Assembly: GCA_020859995.1 (NCBI GenBank)
Contig: JAJBVE010000025.1
Coordinates: 1 to 33,417, forward strand
Direction: 5' to 3'
Length of the DNA stretch: 33,417 nt
From: Clostridiales bacterium
GTDB lineage: Bacteria > Bacillota > Clostridia > Lachnospirales > Lachnospiraceae
The notes beneath the pieces were generated by a model, which worked only from the letters and a program-made list of their open reading frames with translations, searched no databases and was not told where the DNA came from. Below are positions 7,641 through 26,632 of the stretch, in pieces (position 1 is the stretch's first letter; the number at the start of each line of letters is the position of its first letter). Position numbers and translations under genes: made by a program.

Positions 7641-8627
7641 TCACAGGCCGTATTCTTTAAACAGCTGATCCTGATAATCGGTATCAGCTACCGCTCTTTC
7701 CAGATCTGCATTTCGACCGTCCACAAGCAGTCTGGCGTATAATTTACGGCACCTTTCCATGCCTTCCGCCCGGCCTTCCGCTCGGCCTTCCGCCCGGCCT
7801 TCCGCTCGGCCTTCCGCCCGGCCTTCCGCTCGCCCTTCCGCTCGGCCCTCTTCCAGCCCATCTTCGCGTGCTTCTTTCCGGATCAGTTTTTTATAATCTC
7901 TCTCGTTAAATGTAGTCAGAAGCATATTCTTCACCTCCGCTCGATTGGCAATTAAGATATCCGCAAGGATTCCCTTTTCAATACATTCATCCACGGCTTT
8001 GTCGATTGCCGTTTTCAAGTCATGGCCCTCGCTCAGAAAAAAACGAACCCGGTGTATGAAAAATGAATAATCAGAAAGCCTTTTGCTCTTACTCATAAGT
8101 TCCTGATTGTGCCCGTAATTGACATTCAGCATGGTTGCCCGGCATTCCACCGCGGGCAATGAACCTGCTATTTTTGGAAAAGCACTGGACAAGCAAAGCT
8201 CTTCACTATCTTTCGCATCATCTTCTCCATTGTAGAATACGATAAATTTCGGGAATGGAAGTTCAATTAATCTGGAAGAATACAGGCTGTAATGACTCAT
8301 CTCTACGTATGATCGAAGCATTTCTACCAGATAAATCAATCCGCGCAAAGGCATATTCGGATTAATTGTGCTTTGATGCTCATAGAGGTTCATGCAGCTG
8401 CCGACCAGGAAACCGATGTCATTTTTCATGTCCAGGTAGATCACATCCGATAAGGTGGTAATAGTCAAATCTGATGGATCGGTGTACGTAGTTCCGTTGA
8501 TTGCGTTGTAGAGCTCAAGTAAATCCCTCTTATCATTAAAAATATATCGGAACAATCTGTCTTTATATTTACGGTTCACACGATAATTCCGAATTTTCTG
8601 GACTGCCTGGGTAATCTTATTGCCCAT
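7641..8627 (-). CDS. Rpn-family PD-(D/E)XK nuclease / putative transposase-like protein
   Basis: This 328-residue protein matches the Rpn recombination-promoting nuclease / PDDEXK-transposase-like family common in Lachnospiraceae. Core residues visible are D70 and the ExQ motif E83-H-Q85 (YEHQST), consistent with a PD-(D/E)XK active site. A helical C-terminal region ends in an EGRA repeat (about 260-289) built from 12-bp units, then a short conserved tail. The ATG at 8627 has AAGGAGG just upstream. Such proteins move DNA or promote RecA-independent recombination in known members; here no terminal repeats were seen. The gene lies 13 bases before aroK on the same strand, which is unusual company. 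Confidence 0.82.
   Translation of the reverse strand: MGNKITQAVQKIRNYRVNRKYKDRLFRYIFNDKRDLLELYNAINGTTYTDPSDLTITTLSDVIYLDMKNDIGFLVGSCMNLYEHQSTINPNMPLRGLIYLVEMLRSYVEMSHYSLYSSRLIELPFPKFIVFYNGEDDAKDSEELCLSSAFPKIAGSLPAVECRATMLNVNYGHNQELMSKSKRLSDYSFFIHRVRFFLSEGHDLKTAIDKAVDECIEKGILADILIANRAEVKNMLLTTFNERDYKKLIRKEAREDGLEEGRAEGRAEGRAEGRAEGRAEGRAEGRAEGMERCRKLYARLLVDGRNADLERAVADTDYQDQLFKEYGL
7761..7850 (-). repeat. 12/24-bp tandem array encoding EGRA repeats
   Basis: Near-identical 12-bp units alternate GCTCGG and GCCCGG variants, giving a 24-bp super-unit, and encode about eight EGRA tetrapeptides. The array is in frame and probably forms a charged helix. Such perfect units are prone to slippage. Confidence 0.85.
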
Positions 8628-8989
8628 ATAATATCCTCCTTATATTAGCACAACCTGGTTGGTGATACAATAGCAAACGGTAAAAATAATTACTGAAATA
8701 AATAAAAAAATAATATTAATATATAAGGACGCATGCAAATCCTGAAAATTATTTAAGAAAACATATATAACATACCATATCTAATCAATAAATGCAACTA
8801 TAAAATTAAAAAAGTATCACAAGATATCATGCAAATTTAGAAACTTTATACGCTGGCTGGCCACAGTATAGACACAGTCTTTTCCTTAATTGGACACAAT
8901 CTTTCTATAGAATTTTAAAGAGATTTGATATCTGCCCGGATCAGGGTAGCAGTGTTCCCCGCAGTTACTAAAATTTATAGAGAACAGGA
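8628..8989. other. AT-rich divergent intergenic region
   Basis: This 362-base stretch separates the Rpn gene (-) from the ABC operon (+) and must hold promoters for both. No convincing -35/-10 pair was found. A 12-base direct repeat GACACARTCTTT occurs at 8871-8882 and 8893-8904, spaced by 22 bases (two helical turns), so a regulator could bind the same face twice upstream of the ABC operon. Confidence 0.4.
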
Positions 8990-15252: not shown

Positions 15253-15354
15253 GATTTATAACCATAATAAAAGAAAGACAACCGACGAGGATGGCGGGCG
15301 AAGCACACGGCTGTGCGAATGCCAGGCCATCTGTTTTCTTTTTAAGAAAACATT

Positions 15355-15488
15355 GTAACTGCTCAGAACAGGTCTTCGCACTTGCTGCGAAGGCCGTATG
15401 AAAACATATAGCGTGTGGGGGAAAGCCCATCGCGCAGCGATTTTAAATTGGCTTTCCCCTCGTAACTGTGAAGGTACTGAACAGTTAC
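15355..15488. mobile_element. 134-bp MITE with IS66-like ends and 8-bp target duplication
   Basis: The left end GTAACTGCTCAGAAC and the reverse complement of the right end GTAACTGTTCAGTAC match at 13 of 15 positions. Both ends are flanked immediately by the perfect direct repeat AAAACATT (15347-15354 and 15489-15496). Ends starting GTAA with 8-bp duplications are characteristic of IS66-family transposition. The interior holds no transposase but three strong hairpins: a 10-bp stem at 15371-15395, GGGGAAAGCC/GGCTTTCCCC at 15418-15459 with a nested 5-bp stem, and GTAACTGT/ACAGTTAC at 15462-15488. It lies between promoter and ribosome site of citrate synthase, so it becomes part of the leader RNA. 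Confidence 0.85.
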
Positions 15489-15514
15489 AAAACATTTTTC
15501 AAAGGAGGAGACTT

Positions 15515-16882
15515 ATGGCGATCAGCGAAAAAGATAAAAAGATCCGTGACATCAGGCTGGAGGAGCTGGCAAAATACTGCCTGATTTCCAGCGAATTTGA
15601 CTTGAATCTGTATACGGAATATGATGTGAAGCGCGGCCTGCGTGAGTCAGATGGTAAAGGTGTCCTGACCGGGTTGACAGAGATCTCGGACGTGGTCGCT
15701 TTCCGAACCGAGAAAGGTAAGAAAATACCGGCGGATGGTCAGCTCTATTTCCAGGGCTACAATGTCATGGATCTGAAAAATGGCTTCGCAGGTCGAAGAT
15801 TTAATTATGAAGAAGTGGTTTATCTTCTGCTTTTTGGCGCGCTTCCAAACCGCCAGCAGCTGGACTCGTTTCTGGAGCTGCTGGCGCAGTACCGGGAGCT
15901 GCCGAATAAATTTGTGCGCGACGTCATCATGAAAGCACCGAGTGAAAACCTGATGAACGCATTGCAGAGAAGTGTGCTGACCCTTTATTCTTACGACGAA
16001 AACCCGGATGACATTTCGATTCCGAATGTGCTCCGTCAGAGTCTTTCTCTGATTGCCACGCTTCCCTTGATTTCCGTGTATGCCTATCATGCGCACAAGC
16101 ATTATCACGATGATGAGAGTCTCCTTATCCGTTATCCGGATCCGAAGCTTTCCACAGCGGAAAATATTCTGCGTACCCTGCGGGAGGACGGCCAGTATAC
16201 CGAGCTGGAGGCGCGGGTGCTGGACATTGCGCTGGTGATCCACGCAGAGCACGGCGGCGGCAACAACTCCACCTTTACGACCCATGTGGTCTCTTCCACC
16301 GAGACGGACACCTATTCAGCGATTTCCGCTTCTCTGGGATCATTGAAAGGCCCGAAGCACGGTGGAGCGAACCTGAAGGTTGAGCAGATGTTTGCGGACA
16401 TCCGCGAGCATGTCAGCGATTGGGGAAATGAGGCGCAGCTCGCTGATTATCTGCGGAAAATCATCCGCAAGGAAGCCTTTGACGGACGGGGACTGATCTA
16501 TGGAATGGGACATGCGGTCTACACACTTTCCGATCCGAGAGCGGTGATCCTGAAAGAGTACGCGAGGACGCTTTCTGAGGAAAAAGGCCTGGTCAGGGAG
16601 TTCGAACTTTACGAAAATGTTGAGCGGATCGCGAAAGAGGTGCTGACGAGCGAGAAACATCTGCATAAGCCGATTTGCTGCAATGTTGACTTCTATAGTG
16701 GTTTTGTATATTCCATGCTGGGCATTCCCAAGGAGATGTTTACGCCGATTTTCGCGATTGCAAGGATAGCCGGCTGGAGCGCCCACCGCATGGAAGAGCT
16801 GGTAAATGGGGGCAAAATTATCCGTCCAGCTTACAAATATGTCGGGCATCATGTGCCGTATCTGCCGCTGGAAAAGCGGTAA
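15515..16882 (+). CDS. gltA: citrate synthase (citrate/2-methylcitrate synthase family)
   Basis: This 455-residue enzyme condenses acetyl-CoA with oxaloacetate. Expected catalytic residues are present: H282 in GPKHGGAN, H333 in GMGHAVY and D392 in NVDFYSGF. HAEHGGGNNSTF at 243-254 is the family's substrate loop. The start is ATG 15515, with AAAGGAGGAG at 15501-15510. An in-frame ATG at 15398 inside the mobile element would add 39 unrelated residues. No aconitase or isocitrate dehydrogenase is adjacent. The protein is of the longer clostridial type. A family member using propionyl-CoA cannot be excluded. Confidence 0.93.
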   Translation: MAISEKDKKIRDIRLEELAKYCLISSEFDLNLYTEYDVKRGLRESDGKGVLTGLTEISDVVAFRTEKGKKIPADGQLYFQGYNVMDLKNGFAGRRFNYEEVVYLLLFGALPNRQQLDSFLELLAQYRELPNKFVRDVIMKAPSENLMNALQRSVLTLYSYDENPDDISIPNVLRQSLSLIATLPLISVYAYHAHKHYHDDESLLIRYPDPKLSTAENILRTLREDGQYTELEARVLDIALVIHAEHGGGNNSTFTTHVVSSTETDTYSAISASLGSLKGPKHGGANLKVEQMFADIREHVSDWGNEAQLADYLRKIIRKEAFDGRGLIYGMGHAVYTLSDPRAVILKEYARTLSEEKGLVREFELYENVERIAKEVLTSEKHLHKPICCNVDFYSGFVYSMLGIPKEMFTPIFAIARIAGWSAHRMEELVNGGKIIRPAYKYVGHHVPYLPLEKR

Positions 16883-23020: not shown

Positions 23021-26000
23021 TTACTCATGAAACCGGATATCGGCCGGAATCAGGGATTCCTCACAGTAGTCGGCCAGGTAGGCGCGCAGCTTGTCCGGAT
23101 CCGGCTCCTTGCTGCCGTAAATCTCGGCGGTGAGCACCAGCTGATTTTTCTCGGCGTAGCGGACATAGGCTTCGGCGTGGCGGACCCCCTCGTAACCGGT
23201 AAGCAGGGACTCCAGTTTGTAGAGGTCAAGGAAATGCCGTCCTTTGATGCCCTCGTGGATGACAGTCCGGCCGCTTTTTTCCAGCAGATCGAGGGTGCCG
23301 TCCGGCAGGATGCGGGCGGTTTTTCCGGTCTGGTAGAGCATGCCGGGACCGTAGGGATTCGTGATCTGATCCAGGTAGCCGGTGGTCGGATAATCCAGGA
23401 TGTACAGCTGCCCCCAGGCGCCCAACGGCTGCTTGCGGCAGGTCTCGTCGAAGACGTAGGCCTTCACTCCGGTGTCTCCGGAAACAGTGGGGATCAGAGG
23501 GAAGCCTGCTGCCTCGTTGACGGCGGCGGCAGTGGTGGTATAGTGCTTCGGGAAAAGCGACTGCGGCAGGTAGCTTTTCAGCCTGCGCACGGAGGACTCA
23601 TCCAGCATAGCCTTGGTGATGGTCTCCAGGGCAGTCATGAAAATTTTCAGCTGGCTGACGTCGAAACGGTTTTCCCAGTAGCGCAGCTCGTAAAAGTATC
23701 CTTTGTCGTCCGCCATGATCTGCAGGTGGAAGGGCAGGGAATCGAGCTGCAGCGGCTCGCGTGTGATCGGCTCACCGCCGATTTCTTCTACGTGTAATAG
23801 ATCCCCCTGGTACTGGATGAACATCTCGTCCGCGTGCAGGGTGGAGATCGTACAGTTCATGGTATCCATGATCTGGTGCGCGGACTTTTTCAGCAGCTCC
23901 GGAACGGTCTCGTGCGGGACAGTTGTGGTGCGGAAGAAATAGGTCAGAAACAGAGGCCCGGCGATCCGTGCCCAGCGGCTGTCGGTCCGTCCGCTGTGGA
24001 TACTGCTGCTGACCACATCCTTTTCGTTGCTGAAAATGCCGACGGTGTAGTTGAAGGCTGTCAGGAAGAGTACGTTTTCGGACACTGCGTTTTCCCGACA
24101 GAAGGCGAGCAGCTTCTTTTTCGTCAGCTCCGTGAAGCGTCCCTTCAGGGAGGCGTTCTGACCGCTTTCCAGGTCATGGCAGTCCGTTCGTGCCAGGATG
24201 CTTTTGCGGATACGGAAATCCTGCATCAGATCCCGGAAGTAGGCTTCATTTTTTGCCCGGACGCCTTCCGCGTCGCGCTGTTTTTCATCCAGAATGTATT
24301 CATAGAAGGAGTAGGTCTCCTTTTCCACCGTTTTCCCCTGGTACAGGGCGTCGATATCCTCAAAGAGGACATGCATGGTCGTGCCGTCGCCGATGATATG
24401 CGCGATGTCAAAGAACAGATAATTCGCGGACTCCGTCTTGTAGATCGCGATGTGGTAAAGCGGCTCTCCGGGTGTGTACAGGTAGGGGACAAGGAGCGTG
24501 CCCCTTGTTTTTTCCCATTCCTCGTCAGTCATAGTCACAATCGGGATGTCAATTTTTCGGCTGTCGTCGCGGAAGTTTTTGAAGACACCCTCGTCGAGCT
24601 GAACGATGTTTTTCAGCACCGGATGCACTTCAAACACATCCTCGATGGCTTTTTTCAGCCGCGGCAGGTCAATCCATCTGCCAAGGCGGAAGAAATACGG
24701 AAGATTTGCGGTAGTATTGCCGCGTACGACATACGCAAAATAAAGCTGTAAATTTGTAAGCGGATAAATTTCCCGCGGCGTATAATCTACCTGCGAATTT
24801 GCTGATGAGCGTTCCTGCGCCTGCTGGCAGAGCATCTCGAGCTTTTCTACTGTTGGGTTGCTCATCAGCTCGTTCAGGGTGATGGAAAAATGCAGCTTCT
24901 CGTACAGCTCCGCGAGCAGCATCACGCTTCCCATGGAGTCAAGGCCGGCCTCGAAGATGTCTGTGTTGATGCCGAAGCGGCTGTGTCCCAGCTGAGAGGC
25001 GATCAACTCGTAGATTTGCTGCTGCAGCTCATTCTCCGGCTGCAGAGCACTGGTTTCGGTCGCCTGGTCGTTTTTCTTCTGCTCGAAATACTGGCTGCGC
25101 AGAATCTTTTTGGAAGAAGTCTTAGGAAACGGCGTATCCCGCAGGACAAAGCGGGCAATTCTCTTATAGGAGGGCAGCTCCTGGTTGTAGCGGTTGATGG
25201 TCTCGGAGATCGCTCCGCGGATATCGGTCACGCTGGCCGCGTCTGCGTATTTGAAATTGGGGAAAATCTCCGCGACGATGGCGTCGTCCTCCCCGTAGAT
25301 GAGGATTTCTTCGATCAGCGGCTCTCCCTCAAAGAGGTTTTCCAGCTGCTCCGGAGCCACGTTTTCGCCATTGCTGAGGACAATCAGGTTCTTTTTACGC
25401 CCGGTGAGCCAGATGAAGTTCTCTTCATCCACATAGCCCAGGTCGCCGGTGCACAGCCAGCCGTCCTCGGTCATGACCTCGGCGGTCCGCTCAGGATCCT
25501 TGTAATAACCCATCATGACGGAAGGACTTTTGACCTGAATCTCGCCATCGACAATGCGCACCTGGCAGCCCCGGACGATTTTTCCTACGGAAGAAACCTT
25601 GTCCTGACGGTTCCAGTCGGCGGAAGCGATCTTCGGCGCGCACTCAGACATGCCGTAGCCCTGCGCGATGGGGACGCCGATCCGCCAGAAATTCGCCGCC
25701 AGCTCCGGCGCAAGGTAGCCGCCGCCGGTGGTGATGCGGCGCATGTTTTTCCCGAGCACCTCCGAGCGGATCTCGTAGATGGAGCGTTTTGGCTCCTGCC
25801 GGGCGAGCAGGGCAATCCGGTTGTAGAGAGCCTTCGCGATCATCGGTACGACGCGCATCTCTGTGGGTGCAAACAGCTTCAGATGATCGGAAAGGCGCCT
25901 CATATCCTGATTCAGCGCCAGCACACTGCCGTAGCGGAGCGTGGAGAGGACGTCGCAGTTGATGCAGAAGACGTGATGAATCGGAAGTACATTGAGCATG

Positions 26001-26632
26001 ATCCGGTTTTCTGCATTGTCTTCTGCGTCCGCGTTGAAGACATTGTCAATCAGGTTAGCGTTGGAAAGCATGACGCCCTTGCTTTTACCGGTGGTTCCGG
26101 AGGTGAAAAGCACCATCGCACAGTCCTTCTCCCTCACATCTGGCAGCACCGCCTGGCCCTTGTATTTCGTCAGAATCCCGTCCAGACAGGGCACATGCTT
26201 GCCATGCTGCAGGGAAATTGTAGCGCAGAGCGTCGGGCAGAGGGGGCGGGCTCCCTCTACGACGGAATGATGCTCCCAGTCGTAAAATAAAATATCGACG
26301 TCCGAGCGGTTCAGACAGTCGGCGAGCCCGGTGTAGTCAAGCTGCACATCCAGCGGAATCACCACATTTCCGTGGCTCATGACGCCCAGCAGCACCGTAA
26401 GATACGGGTGGCTGCTGCCGCCTAAAATCGCGACGCGCATTTTGCGGCCGACCGTCCGGTCCTGCGCCTCAAGCCAGGCGGAAAAGGCATCGCATTCCTC
26501 CATAAAAGTCTGATAGGTGACCTCGTGCAGGACATCCTGCGTCTCATAGCGCAGGAAAACCCTGCTGTTGTATTCTCTTCCGGCGCCGTGCACCAGATCG
26601 TAGATGGTTTTTGTCTCGTTTTTTGTCAGCAT
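23021..26632 (-). CDS. orphan NRPS-like megasynthase: A-PCP-C plus truncated adenylation tail
   Basis: This is a 1203-residue single-chain enzyme. The adenylation domain (1-515) has the phosphate loop FTSGTTGKSKG (176-186), GYGMSE (325-330), CTGDLGY (394-400) and a C-terminal PKTSSKKILR with the adenylation Lys. Its texture is closer to fatty-acyl/long-chain acyl ligases than to classical amino-acid domains. A carrier domain (532-605) has the phosphopantetheine Ser S566 in GLDSMGS. A condensation domain (620-1030) keeps the catalytic H745 in AHIIGDG, with the first His of HHxxxDG replaced by Ala. The tail (1045-1203) resembles the last third of an adenylation domain but lacks its core and A10 Lys. 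No thioesterase, reductase or PPTase is adjacent. It may make an N-acyl amide. Confidence 0.85.
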   Translation of the reverse strand: MLTKNETKTIYDLVHGAGREYNSRVFLRYETQDVLHEVTYQTFMEECDAFSAWLEAQDRTVGRKMRVAILGGSSHPYLTVLLGVMSHGNVVIPLDVQLDYTGLADCLNRSDVDILFYDWEHHSVVEGARPLCPTLCATISLQHGKHVPCLDGILTKYKGQAVLPDVREKDCAMVLFTSGTTGKSKGVMLSNANLIDNVFNADAEDNAENRIMLNVLPIHHVFCINCDVLSTLRYGSVLALNQDMRRLSDHLKLFAPTEMRVVPMIAKALYNRIALLARQEPKRSIYEIRSEVLGKNMRRITTGGGYLAPELAANFWRIGVPIAQGYGMSECAPKIASADWNRQDKVSSVGKIVRGCQVRIVDGEIQVKSPSVMMGYYKDPERTAEVMTEDGWLCTGDLGYVDEENFIWLTGRKKNLIVLSNGENVAPEQLENLFEGEPLIEEILIYGEDDAIVAEIFPNFKYADAASVTDIRGAISETINRYNQELPSYKRIARFVLRDTPFPKTSSKKILRSQYFEQKKNDQATETSALQPENELQQQIYELIASQLGHSRFGINTDIFEAGLDSMGSVMLLAELYEKLHFSITLNELMSNPTVEKLEMLCQQAQERSSANSQVDYTPREIYPLTNLQLYFAYVVRGNTTANLPYFFRLGRWIDLPRLKKAIEDVFEVHPVLKNIVQLDEGVFKNFRDDSRKIDIPIVTMTDEEWEKTRGTLLVPYLYTPGEPLYHIAIYKTESANYLFFDIAHIIGDGTTMHVLFEDIDALYQGKTVEKETYSFYEYILDEKQRDAEGVRAKNEAYFRDLMQDFRIRKSILARTDCHDLESGQNASLKGRFTELTKKKLLAFCRENAVSENVLFLTAFNYTVGIFSNEKDVVSSSIHSGRTDSRWARIAGPLFLTYFFRTTTVPHETVPELLKKSAHQIMDTMNCTISTLHADEMFIQYQGDLLHVEEIGGEPITREPLQLDSLPFHLQIMADDKGYFYELRYWENRFDVSQLKIFMTALETITKAMLDESSVRRLKSYLPQSLFPKHYTTTAAAVNEAAGFPLIPTVSGDTGVKAYVFDETCRKQPLGAWGQLYILDYPTTGYLDQITNPYGPGMLYQTGKTARILPDGTLDLLEKSGRTVIHEGIKGRHFLDLYKLESLLTGYEGVRHAEAYVRYAEKNQLVLTAEIYGSKEPDPDKLRAYLADYCEESLIPADIRFHE

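Follow-up and report, generated by a model that had tools for sequence, protein, structure and literature searches.

The 134-bp stretch at positions 15,355–15,488 (forward strand) of the window, as we call the whole 33,417-nucleotide stretch of DNA analyzed here (contig JAJBVE010000025.1 of the Clostridiales bacterium assembly GCA_020859995.1), is very probably a MITE, a non-autonomous transposon belonging to the ISBst12 branch within the IS66 family, and this appraisal includes the following mechanism. A single-gene ISBst12-type transposase, absent from the assembly itself, would act in trans on the 12–15 terminal bases, and the element would have been inserted between the terminator-like hairpin of a leader and the ribosome site of the citrate synthase gene gltA. 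Copies would decay in place by losing the 107 bp between two GTAACT repeats, which would leave a 27-bp palindrome between the old duplications; we infer that the change runs in this direction and that it proceeds by replication slippage over the hairpins.

The element starts with GTAACTGCTCAGAAC (left terminal inverted repeat, 15,355–15,369, forward strand; first 12 bases identical to the ISDge4 end GTAACTGCTCAG(CA)) and finishes as the complement of GTAACTGTTCAGTAC, with an inverted match of 13/15 between both termini. It is enclosed by two copies of AAAACATT, the left target-site duplication at 15,347–15,354 and the right one at 15,489–15,496. These features, i.e. the 13/15 terminal repeats and a perfect 8-bp duplication in front of gltA, had been called from the sequence alone and were confirmed here, with 15,355–15,488 as the element proper. 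The earlier remark that no transposase lies inside was also right: 134 bp is too small for one, and the open reading frames (ORFs) touching the element extend beyond it, so that it is short and without coding capacity. Since the end motif reached only three matches within the window (up to 3 mismatches), a number attained by 17 of 100 shuffles and thus not significant, the case rests on comparison with other sequences.

Folded as a single strand, the element reached −56.1 kcal/mol compared to a mean of −35.0 for shuffled sequences (z = −5.3), and none of 200 shuffles equalled it. Hairpin 1 (15,371–15,395; stem GGTCTTCGCA / TGCGAAGGCC) and hairpin 2 (15,417–15,459; a nested ATCGC/GCGAT stem) were assigned from this fold, on the forward strand, and both covary across the MITE family. 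They are followed by the 27-base palindrome GTAACTGTGAAGGTACTGAACAGTTAC (15,462–15,488, forward strand), which holds the right terminal repeat and occurs elsewhere alone as a 27-bp unit. Rfam gave no match at the gathering threshold; with E relaxed to 10, two appeared, both at chance level.

The downstream gene, gltA (15,515–16,882, forward strand), encodes a citrate synthase of 455 aa (Pfam PF00285, 397 bits). The element had been placed between a promoter and the ribosome site of this gene, and the placement holds: a sigma-70-like promoter (TTGCAA, 16 bases, TATAAT), kept in the relative G433 as judged by eye, lies upstream of the insertion, the Shine-Dalgarno sequence lies on its other side, and both are intact. 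Within the MITE, the ATG at 15,398 shares the reading frame of gltA and would add a 39-codon extension (15,398–15,514), giving 494 instead of 455 aa. Elsewhere in the window (23,021–26,632, reverse strand) there is a 1203-aa NRPS-like protein with AMP-binding, carrier and condensation domains.

In the genome that carries the window (4.40 Mb in 239 contigs, 97% complete), there were 46 matching places at E ≤ 10 and 42 at E ≤ 3.3e-4, the window counted in and some places being pieces of one element; apart from the window, four of them cover at least 109 bases of the 166-base query at 80–86% identity. G008, a genome of the same genus in which 40 of 340 candidates were scored, gave 43 matches, 41 of them spanning at least 113 of the 134 bases, with identities of up to 96%. 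Counts of the 12-base end GTAACTRTTCAG were 246 in G008 and 41 in the own genome; the reversed pattern gave 0 and 1, respectively.

We then considered the flanks of 64 full-length copies whose ends had been set from the sequence alone, with the flanks left unused. The flanking 8-mers were at least 7/8 identical in 57 copies, perfect in 41 and below this threshold in seven, while with shuffled right flanks 1.09 copies on average, and 6 at most, reached 7/8. Mean flank identity was 0.92 at length 8 and 0.29–0.37 at lengths 4–7 and 9–12, which fixes the length of the target-site duplication at 8 bp. The further copies with the same ends and 8-bp duplications that the sequence-only reading had proposed to look for thus exist, and the family shows both dispersed copies and empty sites (own genome, G008, G433 and G013).

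Several other arrangements were noticed among these loci. One (L149, G008:C90:1-400) is a tandem MITE array with a period of about 140 bp that continues past the contig end. Another (L102, G008:C48, around 8618–8780) consists of a full copy and, directly behind it, a 21-bp unit that shares its left end, with three copies of GAATACGG altogether; it looks like a tandem duplication followed by a deletion. A second element type of about 226 bp, with similar ends and a AACAGCAGGCC...GCCTGCTGTT interior, is located at L367:17023-17249 (G008:C10) and L141:517-742 (G008:C18), and numerous matches to it occur in G013 and G014. Further, G003 and G016 hold several 47–50-bp matches at about 80% to the left part of the element only, perhaps another subfamily.

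An empty site upstream of gltA is present in G433, the closest of 12 leader loci, whose gltA is 90.5% identical in DNA and 99.1% in protein. It reads ...TTTTCTTTTTAA AGATCATT TTTCAAAGGAGG..., the corresponding part of the window being AAAACATT, the element and AAAACATT again; the single target AGATCATT matches that of the window at 6/8 bases, i.e. differs at 2/8, with a one-base length difference alongside. In other relatives, the surroundings of the gltA site were too diverged for a clean target. At a different locus, a G008 copy lies between two GGGGAATG, a sequence that G013 has once, with GGGGAAAG in G014.

Beside the element, at 15,277–15,346 (forward strand) and outside the MITE, alignment and a covariance model delineated a conserved gltA leader, composed of ACCGRCRAKGATGGCGG, a terminator-like hairpin with a variable inner stem, and a U tract; the MITE insertion point is about ten bases past these U's. 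Four of the 17 pairs of the hairpin showed a two-sided change among eight sequences. Under the stricter filters of the search tool, the covariance model built from these eight sequences found a single match in each of 12 genomes out of 60, all of the own genus; the 12 matches all lie just before gltA, and four of them were not in the model. The leader matched no Rfam family, and none of the open-licence papers listed dealt, by title, with such a leader. We regard it as a candidate attenuator. On the upstream side of this leader, L060 (G014) and L061 (G008) hold, as judged by eye, remnants of a different MITE insertion, and G013 seems to be empty at that far-side site, with GTAGACTG present once (also by eye).

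The own assembly contained no match to PF03050 (IS66 transposase), nor to P0001, a fragment taken from L341, at 1e-10, and in G008 only an IS66 transposase remnant was found. The PF03050 profile was positive in 12 of 31 genomes and in 8 of the 16 genomes of the named contigs. Ordinary tnpABC-type IS66 elements were rejected as the source, as the two loci with readable ends have terminal repeats different from those of the MITE: L119 has ends GTAAGCGTCAAATAATAG with an 8/8 duplication, and L121 has ends GTAAGTGTAAAACC (read by eye). The right relative is therefore the ISBst12 branch.

IS66-family ends typically begin with GTAA, as do those of the MITE with their 8-bp duplication. With up to one mismatch, the 12-base end was found in 3 of 34 PF03050 loci, namely directly behind transposase remnants in L341 and L346 and inside other sequence in L131. 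The remnant in L341 terminates 18 bases past its stop codon in AGGGTTCTGAACAGTTAC, and that in L346 in CTCTGAACAGTAAC, each the MITE end or a close variant of it. With P0001 as the query, 10 of 392 genomes of the order were positive. One locus in another genome of the family, L349, is a 1,696-bp IS66-family element with a perfect 8-bp duplication, laid out as AAAAATAT, GTAACTATTCAGAACCCC ... GGGGTTCTGAATAGTTAC, AAAAATAT, with GTAACTATTCAGAACCCC at both ends. Its transposase, split over two frames of 346 and 155 aa, matches DDE_Tnp_IS66 (PF03050) and also NF033517 (NCBIfam IS66), each frame below the cut-off of the latter. Shortened copies with perfect duplications were found in L352 (1,072 bp) and L362 (675 bp), while L353 carries a 469-aa transposase (PF03050 match; 260.4 bits for NF033517 vs. 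a cut-off of 180) between MITE-like ends with no matching duplication. The 469-aa frame takes up nearly all of the 1,453 bp of L353, and the listed coding-strand frames of L349 are those of the transposase only; judging from these frames, both elements would have a single transposase gene and no tnpA or tnpB.

The ends tie these elements to the MITE. The terminal 15 bases of the MITE copy in L092 equal both ends of L349 (15/15), and the right end of the window element shares 12/12 bases with L352 and L362; its left end matches L349 at 13/15, too little for BLAST to report. Similarity between MITE and insertion sequences (ISs) is restricted to these terminal 12–15 bases. Autonomous partners with matching ends, bearing an IS66 transposase that lies outside the MITE, are thus found in other genomes, L349 with its two frames and L353 without a duplication. 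The full IS66 that had been called for from the sequence alone is accordingly available as L349, with matching ends and a perfect 8-bp duplication, in another genome; the own assembly holds none. A search for an autonomous element among 334 loci gave 165 end pairs lying 260–6000 bp apart, of which one, 272 bp long (L313), had a duplication of at least 7/8, and the ORFs inside five long end pairs in G008 did not look transposase-like by eye. Speaking against the assignment, the 10 genomes with ISBst12-type relatives and the 11 with 27-mers have two in common, G378 and G412, among the 392. As a separate observation, L129 (G008), L134 (G015), L340 (G054) and L348 (G051) belong to a second IS66-like branch, in which the frames are followed by CTGTGAATAGTAAC and the end GTTACTATTCACAG is close to the MITE end.

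A described member of the ISBst12 group is ISDge4; according to PMC12898284, the group has a single ORF, and ISDge4 was seen to transpose, has ends GTGACTACTCAGCA and GTAACTGCTCAGCA and makes an 8-bp repeat. The left end of the window element equals 12/12 bases of the ISDge4 end GTAACTGCTCAGCA. Both thus share a 12-base end and an 8-bp direct repeat; ISDge4 is autonomous, with a single 449-aa transposase gene, whereas the window element is geneless with an unrelated, hairpin-rich interior. Similarly, L349, L352, L362 and L353, all from the same order, share the GTAACTRTTCAG ends with the MITE, the first three with perfect 8-bp duplications, yet they measure 0.7–1.7 kb, contain transposase sequence and are absent from the own genome. 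That the element belongs to the ISBst12-type MITEs is well supported, so the IS66-type assignment made from the sequence alone is borne out and refined to the single-gene branch; an ISBst12-type enzyme would have moved the window copy.

Short, gene-free bacterial MITEs with terminal repeats are known, MITEAba12 reportedly being one. MITEPsy1 and MITEPsy2 (PMC3189936) resemble the window MITE in the same three respects. Compared to bacterial MITEs in general, that of the window has IS66-type ends, covarying hairpins and collapsed states of 27 bp. MITEs and the IS66/ISBst12 elements are already known, while in the open-licence literature we came across neither this family nor its IS66 ends and 27-bp units: mostly judged by title, it yielded no IS66-derived MITE and no such Lachnospiraceae repeat, and, by title, no account related to the 12-mer GTAACTGTTCAG.

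Covariation was analyzed in 59 copies from several genera (the window, replacing L001, and 58 of 60 other distinct full copies; L283 and L316 were left out), in an alignment that was not fitted to the structure. Over four helices, 96.0% of cells were paired, compared to 85.0% in shuffles, and two-sided changes affected 19 pairs and 205 cells (12.5 and 54.9 in shuffles). Partners slid by 1–3 columns were 31–46% paired, with two-sided changes in 4–8 pairs and 16–30 cells; the structure came from one row and is therefore favored over the slid versions. Helix 4, the 27-base palindrome, hardly varies and is thus uninformative. Further pair types, a weak measure, numbered 40 vs. 36.8 in shuffles, 51 of 500 of which reached 40. 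As to where copies sit, 22 of 50 insertion points are inside an ORF of at least 100 aa, compared to 2279 of 2500 random points. In the window, the mean unpaired probability of the Shine-Dalgarno sequence is predicted to be 0.27 with the element and 0.20 without it. Since promoter, leader hairpin and Shine-Dalgarno sequence are intact, we expect the insertion to have little effect on gltA beyond a longer, more structured 5′ leader.

The fold and its position invite readings other than a transposon. A genus-wide conserved cis-regulatory element of gltA would agree with a stable fold in the leader; this reading is refuted by the empty site in G433, and inspection by eye of the 11 further genomes that have the conserved leader showed no such element between this leader and gltA, while in G014 and G008 a different insertion has left remnants on the far side of the leader. 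We give this reading practically no credence, and the outcome that would have favored it in the sequence-only reading, namely one copy alone, kept in front of gltA throughout the genus, is contradicted both by the dispersed copies and by the absence in relatives. A palindrome of the REP/RAYT type moved by a tyrosine transposase, to which the short palindromes and the high copy number (246 end 12-mers in G008) could point, is equally close to being dismissed: 8-bp duplications in 57 of 64 copies refute it, given that to our knowledge REP/RAYT elements make no such duplication, and IS66-type elements have the same ends. The third reading, a mobile regulatory RNA cassette whose fold is selected and whose transcribed hairpins stabilize or regulate host messages, including gltA, draws on the covariation in the 59 copies (96.0% paired, two-sided changes in 19 pairs and 205 cells) and on the avoidance of ORFs by the insertions, but we consider it quite unlikely. 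The further-pair-type measure is weak, the structure stems from one row and helix 4 is invariant; selection against gene disruption would itself give an intergenic bias; copies are patchy and decaying; and the predicted change at the gltA ribosome site, from 0.20 to 0.27 unpaired, is small. Moreover, template switching can keep the arms of a palindrome alike, and RNA selection, DNA-hairpin selection or arm template switching can each give the covariation.

Returning to the non-autonomous transposon of the ISBst12 branch, its GTAACT repeats are at positions 1 and 108, and a loss of 107 bp yields precisely the 27-bp palindrome. An orthologous site with flanks 95.7% and 94.6% identical is occupied by 134 bp in G008 and by exactly 27 bp in G014, and in either genome AAATATGG stands on each side. 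Among 208 27-mers, the ends of full copies counted in, 39 had an 8-bp duplication of their own at 7/8 or better (shuffles: mean 0.38, maximum 5), and 31 of these 39 units were identical to one another. An A at position 7 occurs in 0 of the 39 units vs. 55 of 64 outer ends, which speaks against plain slippage; therefore, either the junctions lie left of position 7 or the units, or some of them, moved themselves. A scan of loci taken from G008, the own genome and a few others, which required both ends and, as a search criterion, a duplication of 7/8 or better, gave 58 rows, with 84 other starts without a partner. The enclosed lengths were 132–136 bp in 29 rows, 27 bp in 12, 21 bp in three (two sites) and 50 bp in two, plus singles of 26, 30, 32, 41, 49, 52, 77, 81, 187, 188, 226 and 237 bp; L144 and L146 represent a single site, at contig ends that overlap, and the 21-bp unit in L102 adjoins a full copy with which it has a common duplication.

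These data bear on whether the 27-bp palindromes transpose themselves rather than being in-place remnants of the 134-bp element. The duplications owned by 39 of the 208 27-mers, far above the shuffles, the 31 identical units and the lack of the outer-end A at position 7 are in favor of self-movement. On the other hand, the same duplication encloses the 134-bp form in one genome (G008) and the 27-bp form in another (G014) at one orthologous site, a series of sizes (26, 30, 32, 41, 49, 50, 52, 77 and 81 bp) is found between duplications, albeit in a search that had the duplication as its criterion, and 27 is 134 minus 107, the spacing of the two GTAACT. Self-movement in place of collapse is possible, though we doubt it, and both routes, in-place collapse and transposition of 27-mers, may occur. 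The units are similar to REP/BIME sequences, which are short palindromes in many copies, and differ from them in lying between 8-bp duplications and in sharing their ends with a DDE-type element.

The exact 27-mer was present in at least 119 stretches of GTDB genomes. Among the 80 matches listed were Lachnospiraceae, Clostridiales, Eubacteriales, Clostridia, bacterial, Roseburia, Eubacterium and Blautia MAGs, the named strains Oliverpabstia intestinalis, Blautia wexlerae, B. schinkii and Catenibacillus scindens, as well as Murimonas intestini (record marked unverified). With up to one mismatch, it was found in 11 of 392 genomes drawn evenly from the order (own genome included), all from the own family and from 7 of 173 genera, and is therefore patchy. 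Plasmids gave no match to the element, and viral contigs contained no exact 27-mer. Four phage records out of 50,697 (MT837311, MT836459, MT839789 and MT835858; human faecal samples) had MITE-like matches, 71–96% identical, which could be either phage-borne copies or host contamination.

Taken together, these results tie a repeat that is unannotated in gut Lachnospiraceae (among them Blautia, Oliverpabstia and many MAGs) to a specific transposase branch. Annotators are warned off reading the element as a regulator of gltA, for which the separate conserved leader is the better candidate. It is improbable that IS66-moved structured cassettes are under RNA-level selection across several Lachnospiraceae genera, with collapse as a general birth route of REP-like palindromes; if this were true, transposition would spread a leader RNA module in finished form. 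The footprint of transposition can persist around a REP-like palindrome at a MITE site, and the origin of such small palindromes is therefore testable site by site.
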